Origin: Haloarcula sp. CBA1129
GTDB taxonomy: Archaea; Halobacteriota; Halobacteria; Halobacteriales; Haloarculaceae
Length of the DNA: 64,000 nucleotides
Assembly (NCBI RefSeq): GCF_008729015.1
Contig: NZ_RKSM01000001.1
Coordinates: forward strand, 1,674,001-1,738,000
Reading direction: 5' to 3'
The notes under the pieces are model-generated. The model saw nothing but the letters and a program-made list of their open reading frames with translations. It was not told the origin of the DNA and did no database searches. Position 1 is the stretch's first letter, and the number at the start of each line of letters is the position of its first letter. A program made the translations under genes and the position numbers. Positions 33,690-61,068 of the stretch are shown piece by piece.

Positions 33690-34079
33690 ATGAACAACCA
33701 GCATTCAACGACAAGCCGTGAGCGGCTACGAATGCATCTGGTACAGGCATTGACCCGTGCAGAATCAGACGCTGTTCAGCAGCATCTTAGAGCCGCGTTA
33801 GAAGAGTGGGAGCCCCAACCGCCAACGCACATGCAGGAGTGCCCAGTCTGTGGGAAGGTCGGGTTATCCGAACGAATTCAGCAGCATCGGTGCGGGAGAC
33901 AAGGCAGAGACGGTTACGGAGAAACTGGATTTATTCGTCATAGTACATCTCTTCTTGCCTCTCTACACTATCTAGGAGGTGGTCTTCAGCTTCTTCAGCG
34001 AACAGTCGGACAGAGGATGGAAGTGAAGGATCTTCTTGCCAGTCGCGGAGCATCTCTATCTCGTCTTCCTTTTTGCTGA
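33690..34079 (+). pseudogene. backbone gene truncated by the STAND cargo
   Basis: The first ~75 codons (MNNQHSTTSRERLRMHLVQAL..., ALEEWEPQPP, then the zinc-ribbon half CPVCGKVGLSERIQQHRCG) look like a genuine backbone protein with a hairpin leader. From about 33925 the frame runs antisense into the end of the STAND gene and the translation turns nonsensical. I infer that the cargo replaced its 3' end. The listed end is only the next stop. Confidence 0.55.
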
Positions 34080-37000
34080 CCCCGGACAGACTCCGAGTAG
34101 CGAGAGCGTCTGTGTATAGAGCTCCATGAATCACGCTTGAAACGGATTCTGCATCTCGGATGTCGTTAACGCCTTCGGTCACAACTTTACGGTAGATTTT
34201 CTCTGTGTTCTCGGTTACGGGGAGGAACTTGCAATACCAGATGACTCGGAGTAACTGGTCCTCAGAGCAATCTGGGATTCTTGCTACGAGTCGTTCAGCA
34301 ATATCTGCTATGGGGAAGCATGCGGTGAGGTCTGAAAACGCCATAGGGGTGTAGTAGTCGGTGTCGAGAATCCGTTGGCAGACTTTGTTTACTGCGGCGT
34401 CGTAGCTGTCCGCTTCTTTCATCCGGTCTGTTTCTACATCCAGGTGTGTCGGTAGGAGTGATAGGCCGGTGTATTCGTTTTCCAGTCGTTGGAGAGTGAA
34501 GTTGACGAACTGTTCTGGGTTTCGCTCAGCGACTTCTGCGATTACGAGTTGAACGCTGTGTGGTTCCGAGGCCAGGTTTTCTCTTTTCTCGGCGTAGTCT
34601 AACACCCCTTCGAGAATTTCTCCATCTACGTTCTCTGAGTCATCATTGTGTAACGGGAGGGGACGCAGCACCATTTCTACCGACTGCGAGTCAAGTGATT
34701 CTGCATCGTGTAGAAGCGTGCGAAGCACTGATTCTGTCCATTCTTGGTGGTCGTCCCAGTACCCGTTCAAAACTTGGCTTAGACCGGAGATAAGTTCCGG
34801 AGAGTACGGAGAGTGGTTTTCTAGTAGTTCTTCGGTTTTCTCTTGTACGTAGTCTAGATCCTCTGTGGCTAGTGACCGGAGACCGGCTGGAGCCAGGCTG
34901 AACCGTTCTTCTTCGATATACTGGTTGACGAAGTCCTTTCCCTTCTCAGGGTCAGCAGAGCAGATCCCCATCAAGACGTGCGGTTTGTAGGGTGTGAGAT
35001 CGGGATCATCTGCTTCGAGAAGTTGTTCGCCGAAATCCGGGCGCTCATCTGCGAGTATCATGAAGAACCGATTGAATGAGGAGTCCCGAATTCCTGCGAC
35101 AATATCCTTGAAGTCGCCTGGTTCGAGTTCCTCTTCATCGATTCCTTCTGCGAAGCTCCGGATTTCAGCTTCCCGTTCCTCCATCTTTTTCGGCCCCCCG
35201 CGCCGCATTTGTTGAAGAAGTTGGTACCGCTCGTTATCCTCTAATTCTTCCTGGAGTTCCTGGGTTTCCTCTTCGATTCCAAGTTTATCCGCATTTTCTC
35301 GCTTGGCTAACCGGCTCAGTGCATCGATACATGGCAAGTCTTCGTCTTCGGAGACGTATTCAGCGGCGAATTCGAGTACTCGGGCCAGTTCCTTCTGGTT
35401 GAATACTTCTTGGTGTTCGTCGTAATACCGGGCCTGCGAGTTCTCGAAACTCCCGAGTTTCTCGGCAGCAGTTTTCCGTATCTCCGGGTGTGGATCTTCC
35501 TGGATTATCTCGATGAGAAGAGCGACTGCTTGTTCGCGGAGTTCCAGCCAGGGCTCCGTAACAGGGACTTTCCCCTGCCAGGATCGCATCTGGGAACTGT
35601 TGATTGGGTCGACAGAGAAATCGTGTATTTCGGTGCTTGAAACCTCTCCGATGACATCAAGCAGATCAAGTCTGAGTTCGTCGTCGAGATCTCCCGAGAG
35701 GAAGTGTTCACCGACCACTCCCAGAATCTTCTGCTGGGCCCCCGGAGATTTATTGAATCCTGGCCGCAGCGCCTGCCGTAGTTTTTGATCAGCGCTACCG
35801 GTCTGGAGCTGTGACTGAGGCGGATAATTAACTGCAATCCAGAGCAGCCACCACGTGGCGTCTTCTGGCTCTCCCTGTAAGGCGTTGGAAAGCAGGTCGG
35901 TTGACTCTATAATGAGATCTCCTGCTGGAGAAGCGGTATACATCGAGCTCCGGAAAAGCTGTTCTTCATCCGGGTCTTCTGGTAGTTCTTTGCGGTGTGC
36001 AGCTTTGACGAGTTCTATTGCGTAATGGGGATGCGTTGACGCCAGAATCTTGAACCGGCGAAGAAGTCGGACTCTTTTTGCGAATCCGTATTCGCCTATG
36101 TTCTCTATCTCCGTATTTAGAGCGTCTCGAATCGTTTTCCGGGCCTCTCTACAGTTGTAGCGTCGGTGAATTATCGCTAGCTGGTTGATCTGATTCTTTC
36201 CGGTGAACTCACTGAAGTTGTCGTAGATTTCGTCTTGGTAATCGCGTGGGGAGTCGGAGAAGAAGCTGTTGTAGACAATGTATTCTTGGAGCGCATCAGG
36301 CTGGACAGTTAGACGGTTCGAATGCTCGGCCACGAGTCCGATGTTTTCAGTCAGTATTTCCCTTAGCTCGATCTCGGTGGACCTGTCCACCGATATAGCT
36401 TCTCTGAACTGCTGTAGCAGGTCCTCATTGTTCGTGTCCAGTTCACCGATGGCAGAAAGATACTTGACGTAGGTCTCCAGCTTCTGCGGATTGCCAACTC
36501 CTTGTTGCTCCCCCAATTTCTGGATGTCGGAAAGAACGTCTTCGAAGACGGTTTCAAGTGATTCATCCTGGGCAACAGGGTCTGATGTATGTTCGTCGCC
36601 GGAGAACTGCTCCGCAAGGAGATGGGCGAAAAGAGGCAGGCCCTCACTTATCGATACGATCTGATCAAGTGTAGTCGGGTGAGTAACCCCGTAATATTCT
36701 CGTAAGATTTCGTGGACGTCCTCCGTGTTCAACGGCTGAAGTTCGACTGTCTCCGTTTCTACATCATTGAATCGGTTGCCGTAATCTTGTAGTGAGGAGA
36801 TGAAATGCGGTCTCTCTGCAAATATGAGTTTGAGATGGGGCTGGTACTGTTCTGCGAGGTCGAACAGACGCTTGATCTGGTTCGCGTTCCGGGCATCGTC
36901 TACGAAGAGTAGAGTGTTCCTCTCATCCTCCAGTTCGAGTTCCTCCAGTCCGTCATCGATGTTTCCGGCGTGTATATCTGTCCAGTATACCTGCCAGTCC

Positions 37001-37707
37001 GGTTTTTCGGCCTCTAAGAGTAGGCTGCCTTCAACGACGAGCCTTGTCTTGCCGATCCCTGCCCGTCCCGCGAGAATGAGTACGTCTTCCCCGGAGTTCG
37101 GGAAGTCGGTGATCTTATTCAGTTCACTTTCCCGGCCAAAGAACGGGAGATCGTACCTATCATGCGGATGTTCTCCGTTGAGCCGTTCCTGAAATCGTTC
37201 CGGAATAGACTGAAAAATCCTGTATTTCTTGTCCGTCGGAAGTCGGCCCGCTATCTCCTGGATCTCAAGAAGTATCTCCGTTTGACCTTCCTCTAAATCT
37301 TCTGTATGCTGGTGGATTCGCTGCGAATAGTCCATGATCAGCTTGTGACCAAGTTCCTGGTTTTCACTGATCTCCACCTCCAGTTGATTCAGAAATTCGT
37401 TCACGAGGTCCTCTGGCGTAGCTTCGATCTCTTCGCCGAGCATCTCTTCGTTGAACGACTCCGCAATATCTGAAGGAGTAATCAAGTCGCCTCCGTCATC
37501 AAATTCTTCGACGAGGTCAACTACATGGTCATCCTCGAAAATAGTGATAAAGACGTCAGCATCCAAACCCTCGTGACTCTCCGCTACGTGAGAAGCTGCG
37601 TTTTCTACAGCTTCATTCAGAAAGTGCATTCGCTTGCCTTTCCCATAGAGGTGTTTCGCTGTAGAAGAAGCAATAATACTGGCGCTGATAGAGACCGGAT
37701 CAACCAT
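33931..37707 (-). CDS. large STAND-type P-loop NTPase, candidate defence protein
   Basis: 1258 residues. The N-terminal ~175 residues are a helical domain of unknown type that starts with a hydrophobic stretch (VSISASIIASSTAKHL). Then comes a STAND NTPase opened by DLPFFGRESELNKI, with Walker A GRAGIGKTR at 214-222, Walker B LLFVDD at 266-271 and a GLPLFAHLL helix typical of NACHT/AP-ATPases. The remaining ~750 residues are helical repeats, the usual ligand sensor. The architecture matches Avs-like anti-phage sensors, but no known effector domain is recognised. AT-richer than its neighbours; standalone, with an A/T-rich promoter upstream. Confidence 0.75.
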   Translation of the reverse strand: MVDPVSISASIIASSTAKHLYGKGKRMHFLNEAVENAASHVAESHEGLDADVFITIFEDDHVVDLVEEFDDGGDLITPSDIAESFNEEMLGEEIEATPEDLVNEFLNQLEVEISENQELGHKLIMDYSQRIHQHTEDLEEGQTEILLEIQEIAGRLPTDKKYRIFQSIPERFQERLNGEHPHDRYDLPFFGRESELNKITDFPNSGEDVLILAGRAGIGKTRLVVEGSLLLEAEKPDWQVYWTDIHAGNIDDGLEELELEDERNTLLFVDDARNANQIKRLFDLAEQYQPHLKLIFAERPHFISSLQDYGNRFNDVETETVELQPLNTEDVHEILREYYGVTHPTTLDQIVSISEGLPLFAHLLAEQFSGDEHTSDPVAQDESLETVFEDVLSDIQKLGEQQGVGNPQKLETYVKYLSAIGELDTNNEDLLQQFREAISVDRSTEIELREILTENIGLVAEHSNRLTVQPDALQEYIVYNSFFSDSPRDYQDEIYDNFSEFTGKNQINQLAIIHRRYNCREARKTIRDALNTEIENIGEYGFAKRVRLLRRFKILASTHPHYAIELVKAAHRKELPEDPDEEQLFRSSMYTASPAGDLIIESTDLLSNALQGEPEDATWWLLWIAVNYPPQSQLQTGSADQKLRQALRPGFNKSPGAQQKILGVVGEHFLSGDLDDELRLDLLDVIGEVSSTEIHDFSVDPINSSQMRSWQGKVPVTEPWLELREQAVALLIEIIQEDPHPEIRKTAAEKLGSFENSQARYYDEHQEVFNQKELARVLEFAAEYVSEDEDLPCIDALSRLAKRENADKLGIEEETQELQEELEDNERYQLLQQMRRGGPKKMEEREAEIRSFAEGIDEEELEPGDFKDIVAGIRDSSFNRFFMILADERPDFGEQLLEADDPDLTPYKPHVLMGICSADPEKGKDFVNQYIEEERFSLAPAGLRSLATEDLDYVQEKTEELLENHSPYSPELISGLSQVLNGYWDDHQEWTESVLRTLLHDAESLDSQSVEMVLRPLPLHNDDSENVDGEILEGVLDYAEKRENLASEPHSVQLVIAEVAERNPEQFVNFTLQRLENEYTGLSLLPTHLDVETDRMKEADSYDAAVNKVCQRILDTDYYTPMAFSDLTACFPIADIAERLVARIPDCSEDQLLRVIWYCKFLPVTENTEKIYRKVVTEGVNDIRDAESVSSVIHGALYTDALATRSLSGVSKKEDEIEMLRDWQEDPSLPSSVRLFAEEAEDHLLDSVERQEEMYYDE

Positions 37708-40237: not shown

Positions 40238-42364
40238 TTATTCCGTCAGCTGGCGGTCTCCATCGCTACTGGCGATCTCGTTCATCAAGTCAGGGAAGTC
40301 CATGTCGTAGACTTCGAACTCTTCGATTTCATAGATAGGATTATCCAGATCTTCTTCGTACTCCATACGGACCTCTGCATAGTGCTGAGCAGCTTCTTCC
40401 AGCTCCCTTGTGGAATCCGCATTCGGGGCGAACATCCGGTAGACGTGGGCAGCGAACGAGTACCACGCAGCAACGAAGAATGGATTATCTGCTTGCTCCA
40501 GACTGTCACCGCACTCGTGGATGAACTCCAGTAGGCGGTCGGACTCTGAAATCATCGCAGTGAACGCCGAGTTCGCCAGTTCCATCATCTCGCTGTAGAG
40601 GTCTGACTGCATTCGAATGAGGGTATTCCGGGTCGCGTCGTCTTGGTCAAACTGTCCGAAGAATTCCTCCATCTGGCCCTCTATCATCTCTTCCGCCTGC
40701 TCGCCTGCTTCGTACTCCTCAGCCAATTCGCGGCAGTTGTCAATGACTCCCTCGATGGCAACCCGATTCAGTCCATACTTCTCCAGTACGTCGTATGCTG
40801 CAGCCAGATGTTCACCGTCGCGTTCGCCCTCCTCAAGGTCTCTGTGGGCAGATACGTGTACACAAAGACGGAGCATGTCTGGGATAATCTGGGCCGCGTC
40901 TTGCTCGTCTTCATCGAAGAACGCGACGAAGTCGAAGTCCTCGACCCGCTGTAACGTGGACTCGTAGATCTCCACAGAAGACTCCTCGAAGTCGACATCG
41001 GAATTGGGTCGGACTGTGGCTCGCATCAAATCGAACAGTACTCCGACGAACTCGAATTTCAGCTCTTCCCCGTCATCTTCTGGTTCCAGACCACGAATCC
41101 ATTCCGTATAGTCATCTAATTCCAGAGCGAGCAGTGTAGCGGATTGGTCTCCAGGAGTAGGTGCGTATGGAGCGTACCCGAACATGAGCTGGAGACGTTC
41201 ATGAGGCTCAAACTCCAACCGATCTACTTCCTCACGAAATTGTTCGACCTCCGGGTCTCCGTCGTAGATCTCCTCCAAGTGGGCATTCCCAAGCAACCCG
41301 TACACGAATCCCTCCAGCATTGGTGCTTCACTCCCCTCAACCTCATCGTAGAGCCTCCCTGCGTAGTATTGGAACGCTGCTCGATGGAGTTGTTCTGGGT
41401 TATCGAGTTGCTCGTAGAGGAATTCTTGGAAGAGGTCGTGGACTTTGAATACTCTATCTCCAGTGTCCTCTGAACGACCTAATTCCTGAACCACCGCCTT
41501 GGTGCTCAGAGAGTCGAGGATTCGCCGAGCCTGTGTACTACTTACATCGTCCAATACTGCCGAACAGATGGCCTCGTCCAATTCAGCAAGTCCCGCGGTC
41601 TTCCGAATGAACTCTTCCTCTTCCGCCGACATAGAGTCCAGGTACGCTCTCTCGATGAAGTCTCGTGTGTCCTCTGTGGGAAGTTCGAACGTACTGTCGT
41701 CACCTGCAGCCTCCCTAAGTAGACCGAGATAATAGGGATGGCCCTCTAAATTCTCGTAGACGCCGTCAATCGTTTCGTCGTCGACGTTCGGGTACTCTTC
41801 TTGGAGATAGTTCGCAGTCTCCTCGCGTGAGAACGTTTCCAGGTGGACAGTGTAGTCAGCGTCCTCAAATGTCAGGCGGCCTGCCGTGATGAGGTGAACG
41901 TTCTCTCCGAGAGTTGAAGATAGTTCACGGAGGAAGTCTCGTGTGACCTCCGGTTCGTCGAGCTTGTGTACGTCGTCGACGAAGAAGATGAGTCGTTTGT
42001 ACTCGTTGACGGACTCCGAGAGACTGGCTAACTTTCGAAGGTGTCGTGCGCGGTCGTCGGTGGAGACACCGCCACTTACAGGACCAATTCCTACGCTTAC
42101 CCCAGTTGCTCTGTTTATGAGAGCACTGAGAGTCCCGACCGCGTCTCGGGCTTCGATGAGGAGATCTTGGGAGAGTGTTGTAGGAGTGTTGCCTTCACGG
42201 ACGTAGAGCACTCGGGTTCGGTACCACTCCGAGAGTTCATCTTCCAAGTCCTCCAGAAACGTACTCTTCCCGACGCCCGGTTGCCCCGAGATGTGAACAG
42301 TCTGGACACCGTCATCCACAGCTTGAAGAACGGAGTAGAACTCGTCTTCACGCATCCGAGGCAT
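40238..42364 (-). CDS. STAND-like P-loop ATPase
   Basis: 708 residues from ATG 42364; a GTG at 42412 is in frame but a TATA-like ttcttatc sits about 25 bases before 42364, which favours the shorter, leaderless form. Walker A is GQPGVGKST (27-35), Walker B LIFFVDDVHKLDE (about 125-137). A helical lid (ETANYLQEEYPNVDDETIDG... GHPYYLGLLREA) and a winged-helix-like part (RRILDSLSTKAVVQELG... FKVHDLFQEFLYEQL) follow, then ~350 residues of helical repeats. This resembles archaeal ATPase_2/MalT-like STAND proteins. Probable partner of the membrane proteins beside it. Confidence 0.7.
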   Translation of the reverse strand: MPRMREDEFYSVLQAVDDGVQTVHISGQPGVGKSTFLEDLEDELSEWYRTRVLYVREGNTPTTLSQDLLIEARDAVGTLSALINRATGVSVGIGPVSGGVSTDDRARHLRKLASLSESVNEYKRLIFFVDDVHKLDEPEVTRDFLRELSSTLGENVHLITAGRLTFEDADYTVHLETFSREETANYLQEEYPNVDDETIDGVYENLEGHPYYLGLLREAAGDDSTFELPTEDTRDFIERAYLDSMSAEEEEFIRKTAGLAELDEAICSAVLDDVSSTQARRILDSLSTKAVVQELGRSEDTGDRVFKVHDLFQEFLYEQLDNPEQLHRAAFQYYAGRLYDEVEGSEAPMLEGFVYGLLGNAHLEEIYDGDPEVEQFREEVDRLEFEPHERLQLMFGYAPYAPTPGDQSATLLALELDDYTEWIRGLEPEDDGEELKFEFVGVLFDLMRATVRPNSDVDFEESSVEIYESTLQRVEDFDFVAFFDEDEQDAAQIIPDMLRLCVHVSAHRDLEEGERDGEHLAAAYDVLEKYGLNRVAIEGVIDNCRELAEEYEAGEQAEEMIEGQMEEFFGQFDQDDATRNTLIRMQSDLYSEMMELANSAFTAMISESDRLLEFIHECGDSLEQADNPFFVAAWYSFAAHVYRMFAPNADSTRELEEAAQHYAEVRMEYEEDLDNPIYEIEEFEVYDMDFPDLMNEIASSDGDRQLTE

Positions 42365-42427
42365 TTCTTGGAATACTGTTCTGGCCTGATAAGAAAGAAC
42401 CTTCGGACACACCGACTCTTCTGCTCG

Positions 42428-42464
42428 TTAGGTTAATGGGTGTAAAGGAAACATTCTAACCTAA
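42428..42464. promoter_or_regulatory. inverted repeat in a divergent promoter
   Basis: TTAGGTTA (42428-42435) and TAACCTAA (42457-42464), 21-base spacer, between the divergent starts 42364 and 42464; the right arm touches the ATG at 42464. A plausible operator for a regulator controlling both genes. Confidence 0.45.
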
Positions 42465-42850
42465 TGAATCGGGAGGAATTCATCGGGGATGTCGTCAAGC
42501 ACACTACTGGAGGTGTCGTCCACTGTCAGGGGCACCCACAGATGGGGAAGGTCGACTACGGTCGCCACAACTGCAAGGAGAGTATGGAGGGTGGTGATGG
42601 CGTCATCATTTCCTACGTCAAAGACCACGAACGGGGTGACGAAGACTGGTATCAACGGTTTCGGTTCTGTGCGAACTGTAACGATGCTCGACGGCTTCCA
42701 AAAGAGGGCCGGCAGGTGGGCAAGGAACAAGCAGTAGTAGAGGGGACCTTGGAGCACTTCGAGGGAACCGTGGAGGGAAAATTCTACGATGACGCGGTTC
42801 GTCTCATCGACGCTGAAGTACTGGCATACAGTCCCGAAACCGAGGGATAA
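42464..42850 (+). CDS. cysteine-containing protein of unknown function
   Basis: 128 residues from ATG 42464. It has CANCNDARR and an earlier HCQGHP/HNCKE pair that could form a zinc site, then a soluble beta-rich end (VVEGTLEHFEGTVEGKFYDDAVRLIDAEVLAY). No family recognised. It diverges from the ATPase gene with the inverted repeat between them. Confidence 0.55.
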   Translation: MNREEFIGDVVKHTTGGVVHCQGHPQMGKVDYGRHNCKESMEGGDGVIISYVKDHERGDEDWYQRFRFCANCNDARRLPKEGRQVGKEQAVVEGTLEHFEGTVEGKFYDDAVRLIDAEVLAYSPETEG

Positions 42851-43016
42851 GTTGAGGGCTGTCTCTGCGGGTCTCGCAAAATCACTCAGCTACATTGAGT
42901 ATGATCACTCCAAGTCAGAAAACGAGTGAACCAAGACTAGCATGTAATGCCTCATAAGCGCGCTCCCGAATCTTCGCCGAAACGCTCATTCCACGTCTAT
43001 CCATTTGTGAGAAAGA

Positions 43017-43142
43017 ATGTCAAGGACCGAAGAAAGGATTGATACTGCGAAGGTGGGGGCGACGCTACAGGAGCTCCACGCCCCCCGTGACATCATCGGG
43101 CTGCACATCGGCGCACTCATCAAGGAAGATGTCAAGGGCTGA
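43017..43142 (+). CDS. 41-residue small protein ahead of the DUF429 gene
   Basis: Frame MSRTEERIDTAKVGATLQEL..., ending ALIKEDVKG, from ATG 43017. It overlaps the start of the DUF429 gene by 14 bases in another frame, which suggests translational coupling. Helical and charged; the codons look real. Not recognised; support is composition and coupling only. Confidence 0.4.
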   Translation: MSRTEERIDTAKVGATLQELHAPRDIIGLHIGALIKEDVKG

Positions 43143-43851
43143 GAGCGCGGTCGGTGTCGATGCCTGCCCATACGGATGGTTCGCGACTGCCCTTACCGAA
43201 GGCAGCATCGAAACGGAACTATACGAGGACTTTTCGGAAGTTCAATCAGACTTCCAGGAGGCTCGAGTGTTCGTGGATATCCCAGTCGGGCTCCCGACGG
43301 GGGGTAGGCGCCGCTGCGACATCAAAGCGCGTGACCTACTCGGCTGCCGTGGTAACTCCGTGTTCTTTCCGCCGTGTGAGTCTGCAGCCGCCATTGAGGA
43401 TTACGACGAGGCGAACGCGATGCATCGAGAGCAGATGATGCACGGTCTCTCCCAGCAAGCCCACGCGATCAGCGACAAAATCAACGAGGTACGAGAGGTC
43501 GTGGGCGAGACCTACGACGGGCCAATCTACGAGAGTCATCCGGAGCTCTGTTTCTACGCGCTCAACGGGCAGCCGATCGCTTACTCGAAGTCTTCGAAGC
43601 GAGGACTCGTGTTCCGTCGGCACCTCCTCGAACAGAGGCACTCTGGCATGGACGACGGGTACGAACAGGTACTTGACGACACTCTCCGGAAGGACGTCCG
43701 TCGAGACGACATTCTCGATTCAATGGCCCTCGCACTCGCCGCGCAGAGTGAGGAGTTACAGAGCGTCCCAGAAGACCCAGATCCGGAGGTCCCGCGTATC
43801 TACTACCCGACCACACCCGCGCTTGCAGATAGCTCGTGGAGTAAACTATGA
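43129..43851 (+). CDS. DUF429 (RNase H-like) protein
   Basis: 240 residues from ATG 43129. Typical DUF429 features: VGVDACPYGWFATAL at the start (Asp on the first strand), VFVDIPVGLPTGGRRRCDIKARDLLGCRGNSVFFPPC in the middle, YESHPELCFYALNG, then DDILDSMALALAAQ. The fold is related to RuvC/RNase H. No activity is established for the family that I know of. It overlaps the next gene by four bases (ATGA) and so is paired with the nuclease-like protein. Confidence 0.85.
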   Translation: MSRAESAVGVDACPYGWFATALTEGSIETELYEDFSEVQSDFQEARVFVDIPVGLPTGGRRRCDIKARDLLGCRGNSVFFPPCESAAAIEDYDEANAMHREQMMHGLSQQAHAISDKINEVREVVGETYDGPIYESHPELCFYALNGQPIAYSKSSKRGLVFRRHLLEQRHSGMDDGYEQVLDDTLRKDVRRDDILDSMALALAAQSEELQSVPEDPDPEVPRIYYPTTPALADSSWSKL

Positions 43852-44534
43852 CGGTTCAGGAGGCAATCAATCGACTAGACGCTGAGTTTCAAGAGACACC
43901 TCTGGGGTTCACAGTCGAGACCGCGCTTCAAGCCCGGCTCCTCGAACTCCTACGGGCAAAGGTGGGAACGACGATTCAGGTACGCGGGGGCTACAACACG
44001 GCCGATGCAACCGGGTATAAGCGAAAGTATCTCGACCGAATCGCGAAGCCACAGTCCATCAGTAGTGTTCAACCGGAGGTGAATTTCGGCATGTCCGGCG
44101 ACGGGAATCGGAGCCTCGATATCGCAATTCTAGAACCGCATCACGAGTCGGAGTATGATGACCTCGAATGCCTGCCGACTGTAGAGAGCCCAAGCGTCAC
44201 AGTCCGCCTGATCGACGGAAGCAAGTACTTCTCGGCCGCGTCGGTCAAACACGCAATCGAGCTCAAGTACATCAAGAACGTGGACGTCGCCGGTGCGAGG
44301 TTCGAACGCAACAATATCGACGAGTGGCCGCATTTCTCCGCGGATTTAGCCAAGCTAGGCGATCTCTCGAATGCCGAATCAAGGCACCTCATCGTCGTCT
44401 CAAACAAGAACCTATTCCAGCAGGGAGAGGACGATAGTCAGAGTACGGCGAAGGCTCAGCGGCGCTACGAGCGAGTAGAGATGGAATGTGAAAAGCGGGC
44501 CGTCAAACTCACCGAGATCCATCCACGGGAGTAG
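43848..44534 (+). CDS. PD-(D/E)XK nuclease-like protein
   Basis: 228 residues, coupled to DUF429 by an ATGA overlap. The nuclease core is visible as RSLDIAILEP (Asp 91) and KHAIELKYIKN (E138-L-K140), with a preceding helix carrying acidic residues (ETALQARLLELLRAK). Many restriction or repair nucleases share this core; nothing identifies the target. With DUF429 and the 41-residue protein it forms a compact rightward operon, whose downstream side is occupied by an IS5-type element. Confidence 0.65.
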   Translation: MTVQEAINRLDAEFQETPLGFTVETALQARLLELLRAKVGTTIQVRGGYNTADATGYKRKYLDRIAKPQSISSVQPEVNFGMSGDGNRSLDIAILEPHHESEYDDLECLPTVESPSVTVRLIDGSKYFSAASVKHAIELKYIKNVDVAGARFERNNIDEWPHFSADLAKLGDLSNAESRHLIVVSNKNLFQQGEDDSQSTAKAQRRYERVEMECEKRAVKLTEIHPRE

Positions 44535-44567: not shown

Positions 44568-45498
44568 GTGCTGTGTTGAATAGCAGTCTAATCTACTGAT
44601 ATCACGGAGTAGAAGGATGAAGCCGAGGAAATCGACTCTGTCCATGGAGATCGACATCCTCGACTTCGTTGAACAGTGTCGGCATCTAGCTAAACAAGCG
44701 TTAGGGAAGCACGCGGGCGAGCCCGCCAGCGGCGGGTTCGCCCGCTGGGTCCACGTCGTCTTGCACTGTTTCCGGGTCGAAGAAGAGTACAGCTACCGTG
44801 AAACGCCGAATCGGCTGGAATATATGGCTGAACTCCGTGAGCTTCTTGATCTTGACCAGGACGAGCTCCCGGACTACACAACGATCTACAAGTCCTTCGA
44901 CCGGCTGAAAATGTGGGTCTGGCGGGCGTTGCTGCGCGTTTCAGCGCAGCAACACCCGCAGTCCGGTCATGCAGCACTCGACAGCACGTTCTTCGACCGC
45001 CGCATCTCTTCATCGTACTACCGCCAACGCTCTGGAAACAGTGTTCAGACGGTGAAAGTGACGACATTAACCGATGTGGAGTCCCTTGCTGTGCTTGACG
45101 TGCACATCTCTGCACGGTGGCAACACGACACCAAGACTGGACCGCAGGTCGTCCGCCGGAACGCGGACGACCTGCTGTCCGTCGCCGCTGACAATGCTTT
45201 CCAAGACTGGAACACCGAGTACGAGATTGCCGCACTAGATATCGACTACCTCGTTCATTACCGTGGTTCGTCACTGAACGCCACTGCGAATAACGCGCTC
45301 ATTCGGTCAAAAGGCTACTTTCAGCGGTGGATGGCCGAAACCTCGTATTCGACGGTCAAGCGCTCGCTCGGCGATGCCGTGCGAGCGCTTGGCTGGTATC
45401 GGCAGTTCCGTGAAATCATCCTGATGTTCGCCATCACAAACATAGAACCGCTCTGTGAACCGCTCTAACTGTGACTCAGCATCTATTCAACAGAGCAC
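44568..45498 (+). mobile_element. IS5-family insertion sequence, complete
   Basis: About 930 bases with imperfect inverted ends, GTGCTGTGTTGAATA (44568-44582) and TATTCAACAGAGCAC (45484-45498). The flanks share an 8-bp direct repeat acattact (44560-44567 and 45497-45504, overlapping the terminal AC), consistent with a target duplication and a recent insertion. Confidence 0.8.
44617..45468 (+). CDS. IS5-family transposase
   Basis: 283 residues from ATG 44617. Helical N-terminus, then the DDE core: GHAALDSTFFDRRISS (first Asp), LSVAADNAFQDWN with the second acidic region, and the family C-terminal block YSTVKRSLGDAVRALGWYRQFREI with the catalytic-helix Tyr/Arg pattern. Complete and between intact ends. 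A C-terminal fragment of a near-identical copy is at 22757-22963. Confidence 0.93.
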   Translation: MKPRKSTLSMEIDILDFVEQCRHLAKQALGKHAGEPASGGFARWVHVVLHCFRVEEEYSYRETPNRLEYMAELRELLDLDQDELPDYTTIYKSFDRLKMWVWRALLRVSAQQHPQSGHAALDSTFFDRRISSSYYRQRSGNSVQTVKVTTLTDVESLAVLDVHISARWQHDTKTGPQVVRRNADDLLSVAADNAFQDWNTEYEIAALDIDYLVHYRGSSLNATANNALIRSKGYFQRWMAETSYSTVKRSLGDAVRALGWYRQFREIILMFAITNIEPLCEPL

Positions 45499-45573: not shown

Positions 45574-45610
45574 TCGCCGTACTGGCGAGTTCCTGAACAC
45601 GGTGAGAACA

Positions 45611-45868
45611 ATGGCAACCAGAGATATCTACGAAACTGGCTTCGACGAATTCAAAAGACGGAACGGCAACCTCATCGCCAAATTCGACGACTCACTCGGC
45701 GTCTACAGCAGCGTCAGAAAATACGCCCGCACACTACCCAGCGAAGCACGCGCAACACAAGACGGCAACCACATCCAAATCAAAGCCGACGAAACACTCC
45801 AAAACTGGTTCCCCTTCAACATCAACCAAAACAAGGGTCTCCTGTCACGGATAGTTCAGCTCGGATGA
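45611..45868 (+). CDS. small protein, probably 3'-truncated
   Basis: 85 residues from ATG 45611 (MATRDIYETGFDEFKRRNG...). Helical with a beta tail; the codons prefer A at third positions less typically haloarchaeal (caa, aaa, aca). It ends two bases before the stop of the convergent methylase gene and its last residues (SRIVQLG) look like read-through, so I suspect that the cargo insertion cut off its end. Hairpin leader present. Unrecognised. Confidence 0.5.
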   Translation: MATRDIYETGFDEFKRRNGNLIAKFDDSLGVYSSVRKYARTLPSEARATQDGNHIQIKADETLQNWFPFNINQNKGLLSRIVQLG

Positions 45869-45870
45869 TA

Positions 45871-48408
45871 TCAGACGGATACTCCGATTTGATCTTCCTC
45901 AGCTAGCCGCACGTATTCGTTCAGAGAAGCGTTGCAGAGTGCATAGAATGATATGAAGAAGTAGATCGAGAGCTCGCGGCTGTTCTCTATAATGTCGCCG
46001 TGGGCGATCTTGTTACGTCTCTGCCTTACAGTCTCATCTAAGAAAGTGCTGAATACGCCATCAAAGAACTGCGATATCAGACTACCCAGATTCTTCGTCT
46101 GGGTCCGGCCTCTTCCCGGCATCTTGAATTTCGTCTCATGATCCTTCTCGATAATCTCCCCGCCTGTTTCTTCCACTAAATCTCCCAGCACCCCCTCAAA
46201 TTGGAGAACAATACCAGCAAGAAAACCTCTGTAATGCCCCTGCTCAAACTCCATCAATAAGTCGTTCAACAACTCACTCCGATCCTCAAAGAACCCGATA
46301 TTCTCGAATGTATTCCGAGCCTTGTCGAGAAGCTCTTCCTCAAATCGTTCAACAATGAACTCACGGGCTGCTTCCTCATCTGACTCCAGTAACTGTTGAA
46401 ACTCTTCAAACTCAGATGGAGTCATAAACCAGGACCATGCGAAATCATCTCTGGACGCAAGGTACCGGCGGATTGATTCCTTCTCACTATCACTCTCACA
46501 GCTCTCTATCAAGAGCTGGTTCAAACTGACCAGGTCTCCGTCATCCTCGGGAGGGAAGAACGGCTCCATACGGTTGAACAGGGCCTGGCTCAGGGCACCC
46601 TTGATAACGGGGATATCTCGTAGAGATCCAAAATTGAGCCGGTACCAGTCCAAGTCTATCGGATCGGCATACGTCTGGAAGAATTCCTTATACAACGGCG
46701 TATTCAATAGCCGAGCCAGAGAATCCCGTATCTCATCGGTCTCTGCCTGCAATCCGATCATAGCAGTATCAAACAACGCATCCTCAACCTCAACCCTGTA
46801 ACAACGCGGGTTATCGAAAATCTTAGGGATAACCAGGTCTGGATTCCTGAACACACCCCGATAATCTACTTCGAATACCGGGCCCTCCTGGTTGTAGCGC
46901 CTTGGTTCATTTTCGATATACTCTGCCAATTCGTTGTGGCCATCCTCTCTCAATTCCTCTACTACATTAGCTTCAGTAATCTCTACTCCCTCTGATTCGA
47001 GTTCGTCCGTGTAGGACTGGAGATCTAGAAGGTACAGATCAATGTCATCAGAGGTGATAGCCCTGATTTCGCTGGATGGGTTCTTGATTACCGGTCGGAA
47101 GAACTTGTCATCGATACCGGAGTCCTCCCGTTCCTCTTCGCTGAAATAGAAGAAGTCGTTGTTACCTGTACTGAGCCCGCTTCCTGCCTCGACACCTGAG
47201 AGATCGCCGAAACGAGTGAAGCCGTCAGAAGTGATGATATCATAGATAGGCGGGTTCGACAGGATCCGCACCACGTTCCTACCTTCCAAATCCTCGTGGG
47301 ACGCCTTTACCAACTCCACGTTGTAGGGGTTGTAGCGATTCTGGAGTATCTTGTCGAGCGGCTGCTCGAACAATCCCCGAGCGTTCTCAGGTAACTCCGT
47401 CTGATTGAATTTCCCAATCCCTGTCTCACGTACATCTCGTGGTCTATCTTCCTTGATTACCGTGAGCAGTACCAACTCCGTGGAACGAGCACTGCCTATC
47501 GGACCAACAGGCAGTTCAATTACCCGGTGGATCCCGCAGCTTTCAGTCAACTCCTCTAATAAGCCCTGCTTCAATGCACTTTTCGGAAGCAAGAACGCCC
47601 CTCTACCACCCTCTTTCAGGTGTGAAACAGCTTTAGTGACAAAGGCTGCTGAAGCGATCTTTCCTCTGCCAGGAGCCCATTTTTGGATCCTTTCACGTCT
47701 TTCTGGGCTGACGTGGAACAGCCTTCCCATGGGCGGGTCGCCAATGACCGCATCAAACTTCTCCGCCTCCTCGTCACCTGAAGATGTCCCAGGTAGTTGC
47801 CATTCAAAGAAGTCTTGAGTAACTATTTCGGCGTTCTCATTCTCTTTTAGCCTGTTACGGGCTAAATCAGCGTACAGTGGTTCGATTTCGATGCCTACCA
47901 ATTTCGAGCCTTCTGTGTATTCAGCGGCTTTTTGCATTAGAGATCCTGTTCCCGCAGCTATATCGAGCACCGAATAGTCCTTCTCTGAAACGGCCCAACC
48001 CGCCATCAGTTCTCTCAGAGGCTCCGGAGTGTAAGGCGGCAAATAGCCTGCATCAGCAAGCAAATCCATCATCTCAAACGAATCTATCTCTCTAGAGCTT
48101 CCTTCTCCAGTAACGATCTGGGTTAGCAGTATGCTGTGGTCCGTGGAGTCCGATAGTTCGTACTGAAAGAATCCCTCCTCACTGAGCTCGATAAAGCCGT
48201 TTTTAGTTGCATACAGCACATTGTCCGTGTCTTCCGGCTCTCCCTCCGCCGAATGGAAACGATCTGTAGGGATCACCCGGAGAGACTGGTCCTCCAGCTC
48301 GACGACTAAACCGCCTCTATCAAGCGTCGCAGATAGTACCTCAGAGACCGACTCCAATTCCTCAGAAACTGAATGAAGATCTATTTCCGGAGACCGCTCA
48401 CGAATCAT
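45871..48408 (-). CDS. N6-adenine-methylase-like protein with C-terminal HEPN-like domain
   Basis: 845 residues from ATG 48408 (the frame extends 8 codons to a TTG). The SAM motif I is LDIAAGTGSLM (148-158), followed by VGIEIEPLYADLARNRL and the catalytic motif region IGDPPMGRLF, where N6 methylases have (D/N)PP(Y/F); Met in place of the aromatic is odd and may impair catalysis. A long specificity-like middle follows (target recognition like type I HsdM/IIG). Near the end RRNKIAHGD (797-805) is an R-x4-6-H motif in a helical domain, as in HEPN RNases. Single gene, AT-rich. Confidence 0.7.
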   Translation of the reverse strand: MIRERSPEIDLHSVSEELESVSEVLSATLDRGGLVVELEDQSLRVIPTDRFHSAEGEPEDTDNVLYATKNGFIELSEEGFFQYELSDSTDHSILLTQIVTGEGSSREIDSFEMMDLLADAGYLPPYTPEPLRELMAGWAVSEKDYSVLDIAAGTGSLMQKAAEYTEGSKLVGIEIEPLYADLARNRLKENENAEIVTQDFFEWQLPGTSSGDEEAEKFDAVIGDPPMGRLFHVSPERRERIQKWAPGRGKIASAAFVTKAVSHLKEGGRGAFLLPKSALKQGLLEELTESCGIHRVIELPVGPIGSARSTELVLLTVIKEDRPRDVRETGIGKFNQTELPENARGLFEQPLDKILQNRYNPYNVELVKASHEDLEGRNVVRILSNPPIYDIITSDGFTRFGDLSGVEAGSGLSTGNNDFFYFSEEEREDSGIDDKFFRPVIKNPSSEIRAITSDDIDLYLLDLQSYTDELESEGVEITEANVVEELREDGHNELAEYIENEPRRYNQEGPVFEVDYRGVFRNPDLVIPKIFDNPRCYRVEVEDALFDTAMIGLQAETDEIRDSLARLLNTPLYKEFFQTYADPIDLDWYRLNFGSLRDIPVIKGALSQALFNRMEPFFPPEDDGDLVSLNQLLIESCESDSEKESIRRYLASRDDFAWSWFMTPSEFEEFQQLLESDEEAAREFIVERFEEELLDKARNTFENIGFFEDRSELLNDLLMEFEQGHYRGFLAGIVLQFEGVLGDLVEETGGEIIEKDHETKFKMPGRGRTQTKNLGSLISQFFDGVFSTFLDETVRQRRNKIAHGDIIENSRELSIYFFISFYALCNASLNEYVRLAEEDQIGVSV

Positions 48409-48540
48409 TATTGTCACAGGTTTCGACACCAACTCTCTTCAGCGTTAGGTCAATCAAGGGGATACGAACCAGCTTCGAACAACAACACCACGGGCTTAGA
48501 AAACAGGTCAGAAGCAGCTTTGACCGCGTCTCCCTCAACA

Positions 48541-48779
48541 TGTTCGTGCCCCGCCTTGCGTCGGACCTCGAGTGTCCGGACGAAATCCGACAGCGGGCCC
48601 GGACCCTGGCGGAGCAGGCCGAAGAGCGCGGCGTGACGACGGGCGTCCATCCGGCCGGGTTCGCCGCAGCCTGCCTCTACAAAGCCGGTCGCGAAGAGGG
48701 CCGATGGCTGACGCAATTCGAGGCCGCGGACGTGGCGAACGCCTCGAGGGCGACTGTCCGGGCACACCGAGATACGTAG
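48541..48779 (+). pseudogene. transcription factor B (TFB) fragment
   Basis: 79 residues (MFVPRLASDLECPDEIRQRARTL..., TGVHPAGFAAACLYKAGREEGRWLTQFEAADVANASRATVRAHRDT). This is the second cyclin repeat of archaeal TFB with its HTH. The zinc ribbon, B-finger and first cyclin repeat are missing, and the frame ends early at RDT-stop, so it is a remnant. The intact parent is not in the window. Confidence 0.75.
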
Positions 48780-48898
48780 GAGGAACAGGTCGCCTGACGC
48801 AGTCCACTGTCTTTCCGTCTGTACTGCACATCGTTCTATCCACGCTACGATTTAAACACGAAGACGAGCGAAGTTCTCTGTAGACTACTCTGTAACCT

Positions 48899-50203
48899 AG
48901 CCCACCTAAAGAGGCGGACTTTCACCATGGACTCCCGCTCTAACCGAATCTGGTACGGGTTTGATCCCGTTCGCGTTCAGCATCCCGGTGTTCAAGCGCA
49001 CGCCTACGGGTGCGCCTCCTTCGCCGCCAGTTTGGTTGCGAAGGAGGCGATAGCCGATGTTCTTCGCTGCGTTGTAGTCCGCGTGGTTCTCGTATCCACA
49101 GGACTGACAGCGGAAGGTGTCCTGCGACGGGCGGTTGTCCTCGTGGGTGAACCCACACGACGAGCACCGTCGGGACGTGTTCTTCGGGTTTACCTGCTTA
49201 ACCTGAATCCCGCGTCCCTCGCCCTTGTACGAGACGTAGTCGTACAGACGACGGAACGCCCACTCGTGGAACTTACGGGCATCGGGCATCCGATCGCGGA
49301 TATCCGTCAAGTTCTCGAAGGCGATCACCGTGCAGCCATTTTCAGCTGCCTCGTCTACGAGTTCGTTCGCGACACAGTGAAGATACTGCTCGAAACGCCC
49401 TGTCTCCTTGCGCCCGACCGCTTGGACGTTCTCGTGGGCCCACCGCGACCCACACTCTTGGAGCGATTTGCGGCGCTGGACGTACTCTGTTCGCCAGTGG
49501 TTGAGTTCGTCGGCAGACCAGAACGCGCCAGTCGAGGTGACGGCGATGTTCTCGATCCCGAGGTCCACACCGAGAACCGTTCCGTTCTCGGCCGGTTTGG
49601 GATCGTCCACGTCCGCCTTTGTTCGAACGTGGAGGTAGAAGTCACCACGGCGATAGTGGAGTGTCGCGCCTGTCGTCTCCCATCGTTCAGAACGCAGGTA
49701 CTTCGAGTGGGGCGTGTCACGGGTCTTGTCGGGCAAGACGTACTCGGCGGTGACACGCCCATCGACGGTAGACAACACGGCGTGGTCGTCATGGAACGTG
49801 GCGTTGCGCTGGTTGTATTCGCAGAACGCCGAGGAGAACGTCGGAATCGAAGCGTACTCACCGTTCTTCCACTCGGCGACGACGCTCTTGAGCGCGTCAA
49901 CCGCACGGTTACGAGCCGATTGGACGTGGTTGCTGTGGAGTCGCGTCTGCTCGCGAACCTCGTCATAGGTCATCTCATGCAGGACGGACGAACGGGTTTC
50001 AGCCCACTCGCCGTCCCACGCGGAGTCCACGACGTAATTGGCCGCCCACAGGAACTCGTCAATCGTCTCGTGGAGCAGGTCCGCCTGCTCGTCGGTCACG
50101 TCGAGTTTGACCGGGACAGTTCGACGGACCTCCATACAACTCACAACTCAATCTATGCTTAAATGTATTAATATAGTCAGGTGGGGGATGCTGCCCTCCA
50201 CCG
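48899..50203 (-). mobile_element. IS200/IS605-group element with tnpB only
   Basis: Around tnpB: a subterminal hairpin at the 3' side, AGCCCACCT...AGGCGGACT (48899-48920), and one at the 5' side, GGTGGGGGATGC..CCTCCACC (50181-50203). No tnpA and no inverted ends, as for IS1341-type elements. The exact borders are uncertain. Confidence 0.55.
48906..50135 (-). CDS. tnpB: TnpB, RNA-guided nuclease of an IS605-type element
   Basis: 409 residues from ATG 50135 (GTG 50144 is in frame). The RuvC-like catalytic acids are present: D191 in [14 protein letters not shown]274 in [11 protein letters not shown] and D353 in [12 protein letters not shown]. The zinc finger is CSSC...CQSC (324-346). All catalytic parts look intact, so it may be active. 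TnpB uses an omega RNA encoded at the 3' end of its own gene and beyond, here about 48800-49050, to cut DNA at the donor site. With no tnpA in cis it would need a trans-acting transposase to move. Confidence 0.9.
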
Positions 50204-59639: not shown

Positions 59640-61007
59640 TCAGATTACACCTCCAAGTGCGAGGATGCCAAGCAGTAGTAGAACAGCCGTAACTACTCCC
59701 CCACCAGCAGTGAGGAGCTTATTCTCCATCACCTTCTCGTGGATCGGCATCGCGGCGTACTCCTCGCGGAAGGCCTCGAGATTCTCCTCGTCGTAGAAGT
59801 ACTTCGTCTTCAATGCGAACCGTTCCGTCACCGCGCAGCCCGTACAAACCGGTTCGCCTTCCAGCCGCTCCGTTTTGGTGTGGCTGGAGCAGGCGATGGC
59901 CCCGCAGTTCGGACAGTAGGTGTACGTCTCGGTGACGCCACTCGTGTCACAGTGGACGCACTGATGGATGCCGTTCTCGGCGGTCACTCGTGACGGGCCT
60001 GCCGCGTAGTACTCGTAGGGGTAGGTGTACTCCTGGACGTCGGTAGTGTGCCGAACTTCCGGGAGGTACACTGGTTCGATCGACTGGACAGAGATGTCCG
60101 AGCGGTTCGGCTCACAGGTCTTGTTGTACGTGACGTTGTTGTCGCCGGTGTAGGTGACCGTCGTCGTGTGATGCTGCTGGAGGCGCTCGACGGCCCACTC
60201 CTTGTACTCCGTTTGCGTCTGCCCGAACCGCCGCTCCTCGACGTCGTCGAACACCTCTCCGAACTGCTCGGCATCGAGGTCGACCGTCGCGTGGAGATTC
60301 TCGGTGACCAGCGTCCCGACGTCCTCATCGACGACCTGCGGCTGCCCGCGTTCGGCGTGGACGACGAATCGCGTCCGGTCGTCGATCCGGTGGATGACGC
60401 CCACCGACGTCTCGAAGACAGCGTTCGTGTCCGCGGTGACCGCGACCACCGGGCGGAACGTCACCGATGAGTGTGGGTCTGGGAGATCGGCAGCCTCGAT
60501 GTTCTCGATGTCGCGGAACGCCTCCATGACGGGCGCGTCGACGTCGGCGGCCGGATCGTACGGGCGGAGCGTCTCGTCGCAGAGAATCTCGATGCGACCG
60601 TTGTAGAGGTCGAGGCCGATCTCGTCGGCGATCTCCCGGAGGTCCTCGCCATCGAGCAGATCGATTGGATGTGGGTCGTCGTTCTGCTGGAGGCGGTCGG
60701 CGTACTCCTGAGCAGGGTTCGTAAACCGGCCGGTCGTGACGACCATTCCGCGTTTCGGGCCGTCGAAGTCGAACGTCGCGATCGCCGAGTGAAGCTTCTG
60801 GACGACCGGCCGCCCGACTGTCCCCGTGTGCTTGCACTCGACGATGATCGCACGCCGCGTGCCGTCGACGACCTCCTCCATGATGACGTCGCGACCCTCG
60901 TCAGCCGTGCGGTCGGCCTGGCGGACGTTCTCGTAGCCGAGGTTCCGGAACACGTCCTCCATCACGTCCTCGAACTCGAACCCCGAGATATCGTCCAGTA
61001 CAGCCAT
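59640..61007 (-). CDS. Mrr-type restriction endonuclease with zinc fingers and a C-terminal membrane helix
   Basis: 455 residues from ATG 61007. The N-terminal Mrr catalytic domain reads GFEFEDVMEDVFRNLGYENV, then DEGRD (Asp 40) and IIVECKH (E57-x-K59), with KLHSAIATFDFDGPKRGMVVTTGRFT. A long middle domain follows (VFETSVGVIHRIDD, TEYKEWAVERLQQ). Two CxxC pairs near residues 370-405 (CVHC/CPNC, CTGC) form zinc sites, and a final hydrophobic helix (TAGGGVVTAVLLLLGILALG) would anchor it in the membrane. Mrr proteins usually cut modified or foreign DNA; membrane tethering is unusual. Confidence 0.8.
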   Translation of the reverse strand: MAVLDDISGFEFEDVMEDVFRNLGYENVRQADRTADEGRDVIMEEVVDGTRRAIIVECKHTGTVGRPVVQKLHSAIATFDFDGPKRGMVVTTGRFTNPAQEYADRLQQNDDPHPIDLLDGEDLREIADEIGLDLYNGRIEILCDETLRPYDPAADVDAPVMEAFRDIENIEAADLPDPHSSVTFRPVVAVTADTNAVFETSVGVIHRIDDRTRFVVHAERGQPQVVDEDVGTLVTENLHATVDLDAEQFGEVFDDVEERRFGQTQTEYKEWAVERLQQHHTTTVTYTGDNNVTYNKTCEPNRSDISVQSIEPVYLPEVRHTTDVQEYTYPYEYYAAGPSRVTAENGIHQCVHCDTSGVTETYTYCPNCGAIACSSHTKTERLEGEPVCTGCAVTERFALKTKYFYDEENLEAFREEYAAMPIHEKVMENKLLTAGGGVVTAVLLLLGILALGGVI

Positions 61008-61068
61008 CCTCAATTATGTGGACAGTACGTTGCAACTGCCAAATACGTTGCCGAACGCTACGCCGTCC

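Follow-up and report, generated by a model that had tools for sequence, protein, structure and literature searches.

A probable partly decayed nuclease cassette of haloarchaea with a RuvC-like DUF429 member

The protein family DUF429 (PF04250; COG2410, COG4328, COG4923) is widespread, and its function has only been predicted. A survey of the RNase H-like superfamily placed it in clade D together with RuvC and predicted nuclease activity; in its passages on DUF429, the genomic context is judged to be conserved in close taxa and mobility to be unlikely (Majorek et al. 2014, PMC3985635). The E. coli RuvC residues relevant to the comparison are D7, D138 and D141 (PMC3834835). The other titles and abstracts that name DUF429 contained no pointer to defence.

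Here we analyze a DUF429 gene in a stretch of 64,000 nucleotides from Haloarcula sp. CBA1129 (the window), where three ORFs follow each other on the + strand: a 41-codon ORF (gene 1), DUF429 (gene 2) and the gene of a 228-aa PD-(D/E)XK-like protein (nuc2, gene 3; Table 1). Our analysis indicates that this is probably a haloarchaeal cassette that moves horizontally and has partly decayed; it would originally have consisted of three overlapping nuclease genes and has kept two of the nucleases.

The cassette and its first gene

The overlaps of 14 bases between genes 1 and 2 (43129-43142) and of 4 bases between genes 2 and 3 (43848-43851, ATGA), which had been noted in the original prediction for this DNA, are borne out by the coordinates. 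The mechanical ORF of DUF429 begins at TTG 43039; we assigned the start to ATG 43129. The three-gene arrangement recurs in other genomes and is therefore more than chance. We searched 391 Halobacteria genomes and found gene 3 or a relative in 19 of them, ten of these being close (56-100% identity). The 15 loci compared below comprise these ten, G336 and G344 from the DUF429 search, two GTDB contigs (Halostagnicola sp. A56, Haloglomus irregulare) and one plasmid (Haladaptatus sp. DYSN1).

Table 1. Features of the cassette and of its surroundings in the window.
Feature	Position	Strand	Basis or remark
1258-aa protein, possibly a STAND-type defence gene	33931-37707		nSTAND_NTPase5 domain (E=1.7e-11), weak HEAT repeats
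Divergent pair: 724-aa AAA_16/STAND-like ATPase and 128-aa ORF	40238-42850	- (ATPase), + (128-aa ORF)	128-aa ORF: weak SesA match (E=0.018)
Probable promoter end of the cassette	42972..43016	+	stretch common to loci with otherwise differing upstream context
Gene 1 remnant, 41-codon ORF (41 aa, ATG)	43017..43142	+	ends of a PDDEXK_4 (PDC-S26) nuclease gene
Deletion junction, CTC microhomology	43074..43076	+	two blastn segments against G213
Gene 2, DUF429, 240 aa from ATG 43129	43129..43851	+	PF04250
Gene 3, nuc2, predicted 228-aa PD-(D/E)XK nuclease with D91, E138, K140	43848..44534	+	alignment, model
DDE transposase	44617-45468		PF01609; 83 bases past gene 3
Apparently interrupted TFB-like gene	45602-48785		N-terminus apparently starts at 45602; C-terminal piece at 48543-48785
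N6-methylase gene	45871-48432	-	best PADLOC match mad2
OrfB_IS605 / Cas12f1-like TNB transposon protein	48909-50144		
Mrr_cat restriction endonuclease	59643-61013		PF04471, E=2.4e-26

In the original prediction, a 41-aa protein was one member of a coupled trio. Searches for this peptide in related loci located it at the same position in other genomes, and in one relative (G213) its two halves lie 1 kb apart within a single ORF, an intact 385-aa gene at the gene 1 position (L030:7937-9094). The product of this gene matches both PDDEXK_4 (PF14281; E=7.3e-9, 36.3 bits, cut-off 22.3) and the PADLOC candidate PDC-S26 (E=1.3e-24). The 41 codons correspond to the first 20 and the last 21 codons of the G213-type gene, relative to which the window is missing 1,032 bp, or 344 codons, in frame, at a CTC repeat by which the two blastn segments overlap (118-120 / 1150-1152). 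The deleted part includes the whole matched PDDEXK_4 domain (residues 33-154 of the G213 protein), and the 41 residues left in the window matched no family, PDDEXK_4 included. Proteins about 30-35% identical to the G213 protein match it from close to its start to close to its end, which favors a deletion as the origin of the 41 codons over an insertion into a small gene.

The same junction is present in 7 of the 15 loci (the window, G170, G169, G218, G344, G336 and Halostagnicola sp. A56). In G140 the alignment spans the same join, but an additional two bases shift the halves into different frames, and two Haladaptatus plasmids carry a separate in-frame remnant of gene 1 with 74 codons (2/15). 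Only in G213 is gene 1 intact in operon order, and there gene 3 is frameshifted; no single genome among the loci studied has all three genes intact in the window's order. Trees of DUF429 and gene 3 were mostly unresolved in the close group, gave weak support for the order of events and did not settle the oldest state of gene 1, and a scan for direct repeats added nothing informative. Upstream of the ORF, the blastn match to the intact G213 gene region starts at window position 42972 (80% over 105 nt). The stretch from there to the gene 1 start also aligns in G355 and G140, both of which lack the window's upstream genes.

The seven 41-codon forms differ by 54 distinct changes, 16 synonymous and 38 non-synonymous. 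Random placement of these changes leads to an expectation of 16.4 synonymous ones (P=0.62), hence no amino-acid constraint is seen in the ORF. As a control, we used 36-codon segments of DUF429 from the same seven genomes, for which P was below 0.05 in five of six cases and 0.076 in the sixth, showing that the test has power at such length. The ORF is stop-free in the seven loci, but this would occur by chance with P=0.38 under the neutral model and is therefore no evidence that an open leader ORF has been selected for. We had considered the ORF as a conserved small protein, given its kept position and its being open in seven loci, but rejected this candidate because the changes fit neutrality. 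Summed dN/dS was 0.68 for the ORF, 0.26 for DUF429 and 0.16 for gene 3. DUF429 and gene 3 are under purifying selection; the 41-codon ORF is a deletion remnant and not a functional small protein, so that the 41-aa member of the proposed trio is the scar of a PDDEXK_4 nuclease gene.

The folds of DUF429 and gene 3

Gene 2 matches PF04250 with high significance (E=1.2e-47, 162.8 bits, cut-off 23) across positions 1-213 of the 214 in the profile. In an alignment of 23 sequences, D11, E135, D194 and D197 are invariant and D50 is nearly so. Judged by these residues, DUF429 would possess the four-carboxylate metal site of the RuvC-like fold, with either D50 or E135 as the counterpart of RuvC E66. 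In Foldseek, the structure model (pLDDT 90.2) matched phage RuvC and TEFM only weakly (best E 0.046). With VIA-align, all nine rows at Z 8 or more were RuvC or MOC1 resolvases (best Z 8.7, rmsd 3.6, 141 residues aligned). To our knowledge, no resolvase activity of DUF429 is known. By its model, DUF429 is a RuvC-like RNase H fold and a putative nuclease, and the RNase H-like fold assigned to it in the original prediction is thus borne out by the model and by the published prediction for the family (PMC3985635).

The 228-aa product of gene 3 had no match in Pfam, NCBIfam, PHROGs or PADLOC. NCBIfam and PHROGs had no match for any of genes 1-3 of the window, and sequence searches of the PDB with the DUF429 profile, the gene 3 profile and G213 gene 1 returned no significant relative. 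D91, E138 and K140 are located where the original prediction had placed them. D91 and K140 are present in all 15 aligned relatives and E138 in 14 of them, and conservation of the three residues extends to relatives of only 21-30% identity. With the structure model of gene 3 (pLDDT 82.1) as query, the 13 best Foldseek rows were all NucC (E 1.4e-3 to 6.4e-2, probability 0.97 for the best), at TM-scores of only 0.25-0.31. NucC was also the best VIA match, with a middling Z of 7.6 (the tool's clear-match level is Z 8), and the other top rows were mostly PD-(D/E)XK proteins (CdiA-CT, Cdn1, Card1, BstYI, EndoMS, Bse634I). A distant relative of gene 3 (L040) weakly matches the PADLOC model of NucC (E=0.0075). 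Alignment and fold matches together are good evidence for a predicted PD-(D/E)XK nuclease, as originally proposed, and weaker evidence for a kinship with NucC. Among 2.9 million viral contigs, we found no relative of gene 3.

Distribution, piecemeal loss and genomic company

DUF429 (E<=1e-10) was found in 196 and PDDEXK_4 in 85 of the 391 Halobacteria genomes. Gene 3 adjoins only 8 of the 150 DUF429 places listed, and none of the 10 more distant nuc2 places has an adjoining DUF429, the nearest being 7.6 kb away (L040). The refuting condition set in the original prediction, DUF429 as a rule standing alone and a pairing confined to this genome, thus has an intermediate outcome: the pairing occurs in other genomes as well, but the majority of haloarchaeal DUF429 genes do not have this nuclease beside them.

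Both enzymes are intact in 6 of the 15 loci (the window, G170, G169, Halostagnicola A56, QDMS2 and G164). In four further loci DUF429 is intact and gene 3 is truncated (G218), frameshifted (G213) or not found (G344, G336). The converse state, an intact gene 3 with DUF429 absent, reduced or broken at its N-terminus, also occurs in four: in G072 and Haloglomus all but the final 23 codons of DUF429 are lost, and the remnant forms a 26-codon short ORF with an ATGA overlap with gene 3; in G140 the part of DUF429 that carries D11, its N-terminus, is out of frame; and no DUF429 was found in G158. In the remaining locus (DYSN1) both are altered, gene 3 lacking 12 residues including D91 and DUF429 carrying D50A. 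This independent loss across the loci speaks against an obligate complex and against a toxin-antitoxin pair, and the two-component system suggested by the original prediction is not supported.

The loci also bear marks of mobility. In the Haladaptatus plasmids of QDMS2 and DYSN1 (L125, L126), the gene 1 remnant is identical (0 of 222 nt differ) and DUF429 differs at 74 of 717 nt (10%), as expected of a recombination breakpoint; this breakpoint would be located within or near the 5' end of DUF429. Four loci have a gene for transcription factor B (TFB) after gene 3, and fragments of such a gene occur in two more. In L037-L039 (about 9.2-11.1 kb), distant relatives of gene 3 lie divergently beside a TFB gene, which shares 77-89% identity with the TFB gene found downstream of the cassette in Haladaptatus DYSN1. 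The upstream pair of STAND-like ATPase and 128-aa ORF accompanies the cassette in several loci, G355 and G140 not among them. Purifying selection acts on both members (dN/dS 0.12 and 0.07), and the pair is possibly a defence system of its own.

The neighbors of DUF429 elsewhere include further genes of restriction type. Distant members of the DUF429 subclade are located near DUF1156-type methylases (L076, L078, L084), GmrSD (L076, L078), an Mrr nuclease (L077), an N6-methylase (L086) and PDDEXK_4 (L087; also L032). Several DUF429 genes of the subclade thus adjoin restriction-type genes. The pair of DUF429 and gene 3 itself recurs in other genomes. In G164, a divergent DUF429 (59%) and nuc2 (56%) stand head to head; within 7 kb, this locus (L032 8572-15622) combines gene 3 with two genes for DUF429, PDDEXK_4 and a NucS_C-like protein.

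We compared the frequency of such associations with expectation. Pairs of DUF429 and PDDEXK_4 within 5 kb numbered 4, against 0.165 expected under uniform placement (150 DUF429 places listed and 99 of the 102 PDDEXK_4 listed, three under the cut-off having been dropped). As defence genes cluster in islands, the expected value is too low and the excess alone shows no functional link; PDDEXK_4 genes are mostly without a DUF429 nearby. A comparison of neighbors within 5 kb using chosen queries gave 6 of 13 subclade loci and 2 of 19 other DUF429 loci, a result biased by the query families having been picked from the test loci (L075, on a short contig, was left out of the test set and L136, at a contig end, out of the control). 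In an unbiased PADLOC scan of the neighbors of 13 subclade and 19 other loci, defence families were not clearly in excess overall (98 proteins with 109 families in the subclade, 136 with 147 in the others), and only the DUF1156-type methylases stood out (3 vs 0). For the control, 136 of 152 ORFs were scanned; 15 were left out, then one more (L143:611-4759).

Alternative readings and relation to known systems

In the scenario we favor, the ancestral cassette would have encoded, in this order, a PDDEXK_4/PDC-S26 nuclease, the RuvC-like DUF429 and a NucC-like PD-(D/E)XK nuclease. In the window, gene 1 has lost 344 codons through an in-frame deletion at the 3-bp repeat, and the sole role remaining to the 41-codon scar, if any, may be to lead translation into the DUF429 start by the stop-start overlap. 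DUF429 and gene 3, which have kept their catalytic residues under purifying selection, are presumably still active enzymes. Going by folds and residues, each most likely cuts invading or recombining nucleic acid alone: in line with its RuvC-like fold, DUF429 might act on branched or hybrid structures, and gene 3 would be a nuclease of double-stranded DNA. From company and mobility, the role of the cassette is probably anti-viral or anti-plasmid.

The same locus could be seen as an obligate two-component nuclease or defence system, in which DUF429 recognizes or processes the substrate, the PD-(D/E)XK protein cuts it and the 41-aa protein serves as accessory subunit. The 4-base ATGA overlap, the gene order conserved in several genomes, the six loci with both enzymes intact and the head-to-head arrangement of the divergent genes in G164 would agree with such a system. 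It is nevertheless unlikely, as DUF429 keeps its catalytic residues in 4 of 15 loci that have lost the nuclease, the nuclease keeps its own in another 4 that have lost DUF429, no constraint on amino acids is seen in the 41-aa ORF and DUF429 adjoins none of the 10 more distant nuc2 places. One half of these losses also bears on a toxin-antitoxin-like pair with a nuclease restrained by DUF429. While a small overlapping cassette on mobile elements, with a nuclease as the second partner, has the appearance of such a pair, nuc2 is intact without an intact DUF429 in four loci (G072, Haloglomus, G140, G158), which makes this reading highly improbable. Since the genes were lost one by one in relatives, they are better understood as separable modules.

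It is also rather improbable that nuc2 is a NucC-type effector of a CBASS or type III CRISPR-like system, activated by cyclic oligoadenylate made elsewhere in the cell. A search with PF18144 found no SMODS-type cyclase in the genome of the window, no cyclase was seen beside any copy of gene 3 in the loci read, and the Z-score to NucC is middling. These findings have to be set against the NucC matches themselves, that is, the 13 best Foldseek rows (best E 1.4e-3, probability 0.97), the VIA match at Z 7.6, the appearance of Cdn1 and Card1 in the same search and the weak PADLOC match of the distant relative L040.

A more far-reaching form of the decaying-cassette scenario is that the DUF429 of this subclade is an exchangeable anti-viral module with a RuvC fold, inserted beside PDDEXK_4, NucC-like, NucS-like, Mrr or GmrSD partners, and that in-frame deletions have left behind short overlapping ORFs that serve as translational leaders and so keep the surviving module expressed. 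We offer this as a speculation, conceivable but doubtful. Independent of it, the apparent small protein that is a deletion scar is a warning for the annotation of small ORFs in overlapping operons, and DUF429 is now placed in a mobile nuclease cassette. The natural losses in this cassette make it straightforward to test each gene separately.

With the DUF429 family, gene 2 shares the family match, the RuvC-like fold and the acidic residues. Yet the published members are, in the passages on DUF429, mostly single-domain proteins considered unlikely to be mobile (PMC3985635), whereas the present one is part of a mobile, recombining cassette, between two genes of PD-(D/E)XK type. Compared to RuvC, the spacing of D11 ... 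D194-x-x-D197 matches that of D7 and D138-x-x-D141 in the E. coli enzyme (PMC3834835), but DUF429 has 240 residues with inserted helices and its sequence is unrelated by HMM search of solved chains. Gene 1, in its full-length G213 form, matches both PDC-S26 and PDDEXK_4; PDC-S26, however, is modelled as a single-gene candidate, whereas here the gene overlaps DUF429 and only its two ends are kept in the window. Gene 3 shares the PD-(D/E)XK core with NucC, its best structural match, but differs from it in an identity of only 8-14% over the structural alignment and in a genome without SMODS cyclase. In sum, the locus is most likely a mobile restriction-like nuclease cassette, unusual in having a RuvC-like DUF429 member and in its piecemeal decay.
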